From the NCBI GenBank assembly GCA_019162745.1, contig JAFLLC010000065.1, positions 1-34,122 of the forward strand: a stretch of DNA of 34,122 bases, written 5' to 3'. The DNA comes from Deltaproteobacteria bacterium. GTDB lineage: Bacteria > Desulfobacterota > Desulfuromonadia > Geobacterales > Pseudopelobacteraceae. Position numbers and translations under genes: made by a program. Below the pieces are notes generated by a model, which was given only the letters and a program-made list of their open reading frames with translations, was not told the origin of the DNA and searched no databases. Position 1 is the stretch's first letter; each line of letters begins with the position of its first letter. Shown here piece by piece: positions 12,473-14,662 of this stretch.

Positions 12473-12509
12473 AACGGCCGGAAGTTTTCTTCCGGCCGTT
12501 TTTTATTTT
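12473..12509 (+). terminator. Intrinsic terminator of the rplKAJL-rpoBC operon
   Basis: AACGGCCGGAAG (12473-12484), loop TTTT, then CTTCCGGCCGTT (12489-12500) form a perfect 12-bp stem followed by TTTTATTTT. The T-run is on the + strand only, so it stops rpoC transcription. It does not obviously stop the convergent thiolase-like gene. Confidence 0.95.
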
Positions 12510-12513
12510 AATG

Positions 12514-14124
12514 TTATTCTACAACCTTCCCGATCAGTTTTTTCCAACCGTTTCCTGCCAATTCAACCAAACCGTTCATAGTGCGTGTATAGAACCTGGT
12601 AACAGGAATACTGTTGACCAGCAGCGAACCATTCACCTTCTCTATAGAAACCGGATCGCCGGGAGTACACGCAGATATCTGGTGGTAATATTCACCTGGA
12701 ATACCAAAGAGGAATTTATAGGTTGCTCCTTCAAAGCGGCAGGCGACAATCAGGATAACGACCTCCGGGTGGCCTGTCTTATGATGGCAGCGAACCGTTG
12801 CGGAGGCAAAGGAACCGGCAACGGCTGAGCCTGGAGCCAGCAGAGAGTCAAGAGTAACCCCCTTTGGCTTCATTTTCCCGAGGGATGGGAGTCCCCACGG
12901 TTTAAATTGCTCATGAGGGCGCGTTTCGTAATGATCACTTCGCTCCAGCAGCGTTACGACATTATTATTGATCGGCCCGCCGATGGAATGCGACAGTCCC
13001 ATTGAAAAGCCCCGCTCTCTGATCAGTCGGTGATTTTCAACTATCTGAATCATGCCGGTAGCTCCAAGTGGATGTCCCCTCCCCTTCAGCCCCCCGGTAA
13101 GGTTTGTTGGAAAGGCACCGTTTTCTCCAGTCAGTGAATCATCCAGCAGAGCGTCCATTAACCGCGCCCTGCTGACAATGCCAAGATCGACCATATTTAT
13201 CGGCCCAAAGCCGTTAAAGGGATCATGCATGTTGACATGGAGGTTGCCGGCGAAATCCCGTATATTCTTGATGCCGGCCATTCCGTAGGCATATCCAGCA
13301 GCAATGACGGTCGCAGGGAATGAATGGAAGTAATTACGGTCTGCAATGGTCGGAATATCGGTTGCACTGCCGACTCCGGTAACCCGTACATCCTGTGGAC
13401 GCGAAGTAAGAACAACTGCAGCGACTCCGTCAGACATGGGGCAGAAGTCATGGTACCGCAATGGATACCAATATTTGTAATTTCTGCCATCGGCAATTTG
13501 GCGATAATATTCCTGCAGCTCAATCTGCACATTCAGGTGAGCGTTTGGATTTCGAGCCGCAAAGCGCTGGCTGCGTTGAGTCAGCAGTGCCGAATAGGCT
13601 GTCCACTCTTCATCAGAAAGGCCGAGGCGCTCCTTTAAAGCACGAGCGACCAATCCGCCGCAAGCCGGCATGGTAAGGCCGTATTCTGCTTCATTACGAT
13701 CGATCACCCCGGCAATAATACGGGTTGACTCAAGCGTCGAAGCATCGCTCATCTTTTGTACACCGAGAGCCAGAACAGCGTCATATCTTCCGGATGCGAT
13801 CTCCAGATATGCACTTTCAAACGCTGAAGCGCCAGATGAAGAGGCGGTATCTACAAGTACCGAACGGGCACCGGAAACCCCCAATATTCCGGCAATTTTA
13901 GCGGCTGTATTGTCTACAGCGGAAAACGCCGCCGGATTCTGGCTGCCGACAATCACCGCTTCAATATCACGACTCCGTACCGGGCTGCTGTCAAACACCT
14001 TGCCACTCAATTCTGCTAATTCCAGAAAAGAAAGCTTCTGTTTCTCTTTTCCGTTATACCTCCCTACCGGAGCCATCCATGAAGCGGCAACATAAACTGG
14101 TCGAGGTTTAAATGGCTTTTCCAT
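12514..14124 (-). CDS. Thiolase-fold protein lacking the nucleophilic Cys, with an extra C-terminal domain
   Basis: This 536-residue protein resembles SCP-x/archaeal-type thiolases (acyl-CoA acetyltransferases). Thiolase features are an N-terminal VYVAASWMAPVGRYNG, the loop VDTASSSGASAF (91-102), DFCPMSDGVAAVVLTS (227-241), GRGHPLGATG (348-357) and GLSHSIGG (376-383). The loop normally contains the catalytic Cys three residues before Gly. Here that residue is Ser95 (codon at 13840-13842), while His351 is kept. Residues about 425-536 are an extra, probably beta-rich domain that might be an OB-fold (DUF35-like) domain without zinc cysteines; this is a guess. The start at ATG 14124 was chosen for its GGAGAAAGGG site; upstream codons overlap msrA. 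It lies 67 bases after msrA. Confidence 0.8.
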   Translation of the reverse strand: MEKPFKPRPVYVAASWMAPVGRYNGKEKQKLSFLELAELSGKVFDSSPVRSRDIEAVIVGSQNPAAFSAVDNTAAKIAGILGVSGARSVLVDTASSSGASAFESAYLEIASGRYDAVLALGVQKMSDASTLESTRIIAGVIDRNEAEYGLTMPACGGLVARALKERLGLSDEEWTAYSALLTQRSQRFAARNPNAHLNVQIELQEYYRQIADGRNYKYWYPLRYHDFCPMSDGVAAVVLTSRPQDVRVTGVGSATDIPTIADRNYFHSFPATVIAAGYAYGMAGIKNIRDFAGNLHVNMHDPFNGFGPINMVDLGIVSRARLMDALLDDSLTGENGAFPTNLTGGLKGRGHPLGATGMIQIVENHRLIRERGFSMGLSHSIGGPINNNVVTLLERSDHYETRPHEQFKPWGLPSLGKMKPKGVTLDSLLAPGSAVAGSFASATVRCHHKTGHPEVVILIVACRFEGATYKFLFGIPGEYYHQISACTPGDPVSIEKVNGSLLVNSIPVTRFYTRTMNGLVELAGNGWKKLIGKVVE

Positions 14125-14191: not shown

Positions 14192-14662
14192 CTAAAAGCC
14201 GCAACCGCCACTGTTTTTTTGATGATATTTCTGGTGATATGCTTCAGCCTCCCAGAAAACGGCAGCAGGTACAATTTGCGTGACAATAGTCCGGCGATAC
14301 GTGTGCCTGCTTTCCAACTCGTCACGTGAAGCAAGGGCGGAGTGATGCTGCTCCTCAGTATGATAAAAGATCGCCGAGCGATACTGTTCACCATAATCGG
14401 GACCCTGCCTGTTTATCTGGGTCGGATCATGACACCCCCAGAAAACCTTAAGCAGGTCATCATAGCTGACCTGCAGCGGGTCAAAAGTGATCTCTACCGC
14501 CTCGGCATGGCCTGTATCCAGATTACAGACATCACGATATGACGGGCTGTCTGTATGCCCCCCGCAATAACCGACACGTGTGGAAATAACCCCTGGAATA
14601 TCCATAAATTCCTCTTCTACGCCCCAGAAGCAGCCGGCAGCAAAAGTTGCAATTTCGACCAT
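14192..14662 (-). CDS. msrA: Peptide-methionine (S)-S-oxide reductase MsrA
   Basis: This 156-residue enzyme reduces the S-epimer of methionine sulfoxide, in proteins and free, using thioredoxin. The catalytic motif GCFWG has nucleophilic Cys11, followed by VGYCGG, HAEAVEITFDP and the C-terminal YHQKY. Cys154, three residues from the end, is a likely resolving cysteine. There is no signal peptide, so it is cytoplasmic. Length is normal for the short MsrA form. Upstream lie GGGTTGGGGGTG as ribosome-binding region and an 18-bp near-perfect dyad (14693-14710) that could be an operator. The thiolase-like gene follows on the same strand. Confidence 0.95.
   Translation of the reverse strand: MVEIATFAAGCFWGVEEEFMDIPGVISTRVGYCGGHTDSPSYRDVCNLDTGHAEAVEITFDPLQVSYDDLLKVFWGCHDPTQINRQGPDYGEQYRSAIFYHTEEQHHSALASRDELESRHTYRRTIVTQIVPAAVFWEAEAYHQKYHQKNSGGCGF

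Follow-up and report, generated by a model that had tools for sequence, protein, structure and literature searches.

A thiolase-fold lineage of bacteria and archaea with serine in place of the catalytic cysteine, fused to a C-terminal domain in Geobacterales

Thiolases are the classic example of acyl transfer by a Cys residue. In these enzymes, both active-site histidines have catalytic roles, and glycines form the oxyanion holes. In the archaeal thiolase/DUF35/HMG-CoA synthase complex (6esq and 6et9), the thiolase works with a DUF35 protein, according to the available part of PMC6392133. The same part of that paper records that the C88S variant of a relative, PhlC, is inactive and that ST0096 of Sulfolobus tokodaii (PDB 4yzo) is a structural neighbor of PhlC; a plain Cys-to-Ser swap thus gives no working enzyme of that kind. 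A 2010 study of SSO2064 noted DUF35 homologs fused to members of the thiolase superfamily (PMC2954200, available part). Since the words "Geobacter," "Desulf," "serine," and "cysteine" do not occur in its text, the fusions described there are neither the protein reported here nor a Cys-to-Ser change. MsTLP1 of Mycobacterium smegmatis (4egv) has a thiolase fold that lacks the catalytic Cys, together with an extra C-terminal domain, a six-stranded antiparallel β barrel; it binds CoA with a Kd of 0.6 mM and has no thiolase activity (PMC3406046, available part). In the Ltp2/Sal steroid aldolases, which are complexed with DUF35, the thiolase fold has been turned to another C-C reaction, and the catalytic residue is the Tyr of a YDHF/YDCY motif (PMC12329534, available part).

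The gene considered here lies in a contig of 34,122 nucleotides from the order Geobacterales, the whole of which we call the window. The open reading frame at 12514-14124 of the minus strand encodes a protein of 536 amino acids (aa) that contains VLVDTASSSGAS; residue 95 is encoded by TCT at 13842-13840. The features mapped in and beside the gene are as follows.

12514..14124, minus strand: the whole gene, encoding a thiolase-fold protein with Ser at the nucleophile position and a fused C-terminal domain, 536 aa (translation; Pfam Thiolase_N and Thiolase_C_1).
12931..14124, minus strand: the thiolase-fold part, residues 1-398 (predicted model; fold match to 6esq_A).
13840..13842, minus strand: the Ser95 codon, TCT, in the place of the nucleophilic Cys (translation; alignment of homologs).
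13216..13227, minus strand: the HDPF motif, residues 300-303, in the place of HDCF, with Pro for the second catalytic Cys (alignment).
13069..13077, minus strand: the GHP motif, residues 350-352, with His351 kept (invariant in 35 of the 35 rows of alignment A1).
12577..12825, minus strand: the C-terminal barrel, residues 434-516, predicted to be of the OB type and likely a divergent DUF35-type partner (model; weak OB matches; profile links).
12473..12500, plus strand: a terminator-like hairpin in the gap between the thiolase-like gene and the rpoC-like gene that converges on it (hairpin scan).

The reading frame stays open upstream to 14394, which would give a protein of 626 aa. The start codon is nonetheless likely to be at 14124, because full-length homologs mostly align from residues 1 to 6 of the window protein, because a GGAGAAAGG stretch sits six bases 5′ of the ATG at 14124, and because the longer form would run into the adjoining gene at 14192-14662, which we take to be msrA-like. 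The hairpin at 12473-12500 has 12 pairs and a T run on the plus strand only, and so it fits the rpoC-like gene; terminator-like sites in the region numbered 3, against 3.4 expected from shuffling.

An earlier reading of the sequence (the original prediction) had placed Ser95 at the Cys position, found GHPLGATG with His351 intact, and noted an extra C-terminal domain. Translation and alignment confirm the observation, with Ser at residue 95, and GRGHPLGATG, His351 included, is present in the translation. The Pfam thiolase N and C domains are accompanied by a ketoacyl-synthase N match across the same part of the protein. In the structural model of the whole protein (pLDDT 87.3; pTM 0.89), the thiolase part extends to about residue 398; beyond it lie a linker (about 35 residues), a barrel (about 434-516), and a tail modeled with low confidence.

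The best fold match of the model was the archaeal acetoacetyl-CoA thiolase 6esq_A (Z 41.9; rmsd 1.8; 369 residues aligned). Unlike the window protein, the thiolase of 6esq and 6et9 has a Cys nucleophile, an HDCF motif, and its DUF35 as a separate protein. Of the features that define SCP2/archaeal-type thiolases, the window protein has the thiolase fold and the GHP histidine and lacks both the nucleophilic Cys and the second catalytic Cys, that of HDCF, the latter a loss on which the original prediction had not remarked. ST0096 also fits the model (Z 40.0; rmsd 1.7; 333 aligned) and shares its peculiarities: Ser where the Cys would be (NTSGSGG), retention of HD and GHP, and an HDxx motif without Cys. 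However, ST0096 is a chain of 373 residues with no fused C-terminal domain.

MsTLP1 resembles the window protein in its fold and its missing catalytic Cys, and it has an added C-terminal barrel where one is predicted for the window protein. A Foldseek comparison of the whole model with 4egv covered 527 to 536 columns (TM by target, 0.75 to 0.76; rmsd, 6.2 to 6.8); the predicted barrel has no Pfam hit. The motifs differ: as given in the available part of PMC3406046, MsTLP1 has Gly at the Cys place, YSCF, GGL, and NGG, whereas the window protein has Ser95, HDPF, GHP, and IGG, and membership in TLP1 was rejected on this ground. Membership among the Ltp2/Sal aldolases was rejected as well, since the window protein has His300 of HDPF in place of their Tyr motif.

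The original prediction had proposed checking whether Ser is conserved among homologs, and had allowed that homologs might vary between Cys and Ser or that TCT was a misread TGT. Ser95 is present in every one of the 119 homologous loci fetched from the class, which represent 88 distinct DNAs among loci L001 to L120 (the 120th, L002, is a 27% paralog from the window's own genome and lies outside the count). All four TCN codons are used in the distinct DNAs (TCC, 31; TCT, 29; TCG, 15; TCA, 13). A further 14 of 14 sister-order loci, at 53 to 58% identity, have Ser, every one with HDPF and GHP; a misread base is thereby ruled out. The gene was matched at 1e-40 in 110 of the 141 genomes of the order and at 1e-60 in 126 of the 277 genomes of the class. 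Across alignment A1, His300, Asp301, His351, and Gly382 are invariant, as are T93, A94, S96, and G98 of the nucleophile loop. A1 consists of 17 rows from the window's order, 2 from sister orders, and 16 of the 20 loci L121 to L140 (L123, L125, L131, and L132 were left out). The rows used here and in the trees came from searches seeded with the window protein and with L124 and so are not an even sample; many loci of the window's order are in two collections. GSU0654/GSU0655 had been considered as the Geobacter sulfurreducens counterpart but were dropped; GSU0654 is thiF-1 in the available part of PMC7962754.

A search of the phylum gave a second group of fused proteins, of 495 to 539 aa, that are 30 to 33% identical to the window protein over A1. 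Their nucleophile loop reads VETASSTG, and among 21 loci the residue is Ser in 20 (TCN in 15, AGC in 5) and Cys in 1. One member, L184, has Asp at the His300 place, so this histidine is not universal. The 20 haloarchaeal plasmid loci divide into 11 with Ser, 1 with Asn, and 8 with Cys; the 12 that lack Cys all fall on one side of a branch (SH-aLRT 99), and the count of 11 Ser in 12 refers to these. In the Asn row, L198, the other motifs are intact. Thus, the variation that the original prediction feared is absent from the class and outside it amounts to Cys in 1 of 21 and Asn in 1 of 12. Among 83 aligned rows, the HDCF Cys is missing from 46 of 46 Ser rows and kept in 31 of the 34 rows with Cys; in place of HDCF the lineage has HDAF, HDPF, or HDM. 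HDAF also occurs in a Cys relative (7yvy), and therefore loss of the HDCF Cys says little by itself. Two of the 83 rows have Gly at the nucleophile place.

Trees were built without the two catalytic columns. In a tree of 58 rows, made from a set of 73 by dropping 18 near copies and adding three PDB rows, the Ser rows plus one Cys row and one Asn row make up one side of a branch (99/93, the starred branch); ST0096, itself a long branch, falls together with the haloarchaeal rows. The branch holding the Ser rows was recovered with 83 rows without ST0096 (SH-aLRT 97). The fused bacterial rows also lie on one side of a branch (100/98 with 73 rows; 98 with 83 rows). Placed on the tree, this pairing of Ser with a missing HDCF Cys amounts to nearly one event rather than many. 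The Ser-type family is thus old and real and has been kept across Geobacter-type bacteria and some archaea. A very long branch leads to the window's own group (2.02 changes per column with 73 rows; 1.73 with 58 rows), and therefore what is seen around the archaeal genes may not carry over to it.

The proposal that the extra domain replaces the separate DUF35 partner of archaeal thiolases fared well among the relatives and less well for the window protein itself. Modeled alone, the C-terminal barrel is small and has an OB-type strand order (pLDDT 78.1); a structure search returned weak, generic matches to OB folds, with Z up to 6. DUF35 was absent from the profile and fold matches listed for the C-terminal domain of the window's group, which has no Pfam hit of note, and PF01796 had no hit in the window protein or in 19 A2 rows. 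In hhalign, the domain weakly matched its DUF35-like counterpart in the wider fused group (E 0.0013; probability 18); identity between the two groups is 16% in this domain versus 37% in the thiolase part. PF01796 matched 15 of the 35 A1 rows at E values up to 1 (best, 2.6e-8), four fused relatives scanned singly gave PF01796 matches below the gathering score, and the C-terminal profile of the wider group found the DUF35 chain of 6esq (E 0.0044).

In the haloarchaeal branch, a PF01796 gene lies directly downstream of the thiolase-like gene in 12 of 12 loci, with a four-base overlap in 11, and 7 of the 12 downstream genes score above gathering (for L195 and L198, annotated ORFs were scanned). 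An OB or zinc-ribbon gene also adjoins all eight haloarchaeal Cys loci, and thus the pairing is not special to Ser. No PF01796 match was found in the window's genome at an E value of 0.001, and the list of families for the 35 A1 members did not include the zinc ribbon zf-ChsH2. Because the wider group carries a DUF35-like domain where the haloarchaea have a neighboring PF01796 gene, the bacterial protein has the look of a two-gene unit joined into one, minus the zinc ribbon. Position in the protein, kinship, the weak profile match, and the OB-type model make it likely that the C-terminal domain of the window protein is a divergent, built-in DUF35 partner.

The window gene lies between the msrA-like gene and the convergent rpoC-like gene. 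No CoA-metabolism cluster or operon was found around it. Neighbors called with a simple gene caller varied among 80 loci of the order, of which 2 ran into a contig end upstream and 6 downstream. Upstream were a 3-hydroxyisobutyrate/tartronate-semialdehyde-type dehydrogenase (25 loci), msrA-like genes (14), and yebC-like genes (4); downstream were convergent rpoC-like (26), rpoH-like (10), and gcvT-like (6) genes. The dehydrogenase was the only neighbor at these loci that was named by family searches, under NCBIfam cut-offs; rpoB, rpoC, yebC, msrA, rpoH, and gcv are presumptive names. A glyoxylate/glycine theme, suggested by the dehydrogenase, the gcv genes, and a hit to a GlcC-like regulator, was set aside as too thin.

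The setting is different in the sister orders. There, the gene is immediately flanked by a histidine kinase on one side and a second kinase on the other in 11 of 14 loci (a contig end cuts one more) and in 2 of 2 others. The usual order in L199 to L212, L158, and L159 is response regulator, histidine kinase, thiolase-like gene, HisKA_3 kinase, response regulator, GntR. At L200 the kinases and regulators were checked with Pfam, and the GntR regulator was nearest to the PdhR/LldR models, below their cut-offs. The two-kinase block was not seen among the 80 loci of the window's order, a few of which have single regulator-type neighbors.

What the family does is best approached from what it has kept. 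The thiolase fold, the retained histidines, and the retained Ser together point to an acyl-CoA site that still functions but has abandoned thiolysis. The sequence, its conservation, the tree, and the fused or paired genes of relatives are direct results; we infer that the window protein is an enzyme, that it binds CoA, and that the OB barrel of its own group is a DUF35 domain. The lineage has an archaeal-type thiolase fold, lacks both catalytic Cys residues, and retains both histidines and the oxyanion-hole glycines. Most likely an acyl-CoA would be bound, with the fused OB barrel standing in for the separate DUF35 partner, and a non-thiolytic reaction would follow, either the making or breaking of a C-C bond through an enolate or an acyl transfer. 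Ser95 would replace the thiol nucleophile, either as a polar side chain that forms hydrogen bonds or by accepting the acyl group. The non-thiolytic acyl-CoA chemistry of the original prediction fits the residues lost and kept; we hold this reading, with the OB barrel as the replacement of the DUF35 partner, at about even confidence.

Alternatively, the window protein could be an ordinary SCP2/archaeal thiolase in which Ser95 reflects a sequencing error or a one-off mutation, since TCT is one base from TGT and the overall fold is that of a thiolase. However, Ser in 119 of 119 class loci, in the 14 sister-order loci, and beyond rules this out, and we give it practically no weight. A more serious alternative, but an unlikely one, is that Ser95 is a true nucleophile, as in the natural Ser enzyme DpsC: it would take the acyl group of an acyl-CoA as an O-acyl-serine and hand it on to water, an alcohol, an amine, or a carbon acceptor. 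This would agree with the retained histidines, with a Ser kept in an otherwise ordinary loop, and with the use of TCN as well as AGC codons for Ser in the wider fused group, which speaks for some need of a hydroxyl. Against it are the inactivity of PhlC C88S (PMC6392133, available part) and L198, whose Asn is unable to accept an acyl group; the Asn row favors a Ser that holds the substrate over one that accepts the acyl.

It is also rather improbable that the protein is a non-catalytic acyl-CoA-binding sensor or scaffold, which in the sister orders might report the acyl-CoA state to the adjoining two-component systems; ligand binding and a scaffold role were among the options of the original prediction. 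Such a role is suggested by the place of the gene between two kinases, mostly with GntR near, by the loss of both catalytic Cys residues, and by the precedent of the Cys-less MsTLP1, which binds CoA without thiolase activity (PMC3406046, available part). However, the catalytic His, Asp, and Gly do not vary across A1, the kinase block was not seen among the 80 loci of the window's order, and the archaeal relatives sit among catabolic genes. Returning to a non-thiolytic enzyme, a bolder version, which we offer as a long shot, is that a lineage reaching from Sulfolobus and the haloarchaea to Desulfobacterota gave up thiol chemistry, with Ser for the nucleophile and the second Cys lost too, and together with DUF35, fused in bacteria, does an undescribed acyl-CoA reaction. 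In Desulfuromonadia the protein would in addition link the level of acyl-CoA to two-component signaling, as a sensor in the cytosol next to the two histidine kinases.

In a search that covered mainly the open-access literature, no listed paper was recognized as a description of the window protein or of a Ser-type thiolase lineage. Because 4yzo is already deposited and thiolase-DUF35 fusions were noted in 2010 (PMC2954200, available part), neither half is new alone. Nevertheless, a natural Ser lineage with the second Cys lost and an OB partner fused or paired makes it testable how a thiolase fold without thiols acts. The best NCBIfam model for the protein is a generic "thiolase domain-containing protein," which it reaches with 187 of 420 bits, far below the cut-off. 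With the gene in 110 of 141 genomes of the order and such a model as its best match, models of acyl-CoA metabolism in metal reducers would be misled by automatic annotation of the protein as an acetyl-CoA acetyltransferase.

The haloarchaeal plasmids gave some further observations. Within flanks of 2.5 to 5 kb, acyl-CoA or 3-hydroxyacyl-CoA dehydrogenases were present at none of 10 annotated loci of the non-Cys branch (9 Ser and 1 Asn) versus 5 of 8 Cys loci. A CoA transferase lies directly upstream in 3 of the 10, and AMP-binding genes of the CoA-ligase type lie in the flank of one of the 10, L194. The lack of these dehydrogenases and the CoA transferases count in favor of non-thiolytic acyl-CoA chemistry. 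Five loci, chosen after a first look at their neighbors and not at random, were read over 22 to 30 kb: three have xanthine-dehydrogenase-type genes, a fourth has a family-23 (nucleobase-type) transporter and MoeA, and the fifth, L227, has none of these. In L223 to L226, the Ser-type thiolase and its OB gene are near xanthine-dehydrogenase-type enzymes (three loci), family-23/NCS2 transporters, amidohydrolases, or urease, none of which L227 shows; for these hand-picked loci this is a hint of N-heterocycle breakdown. Lastly, L161 and L162 have Gly at the nucleophile place (EGGGATGG), beside a DUF35 match, and represent a further Cys-less branch.
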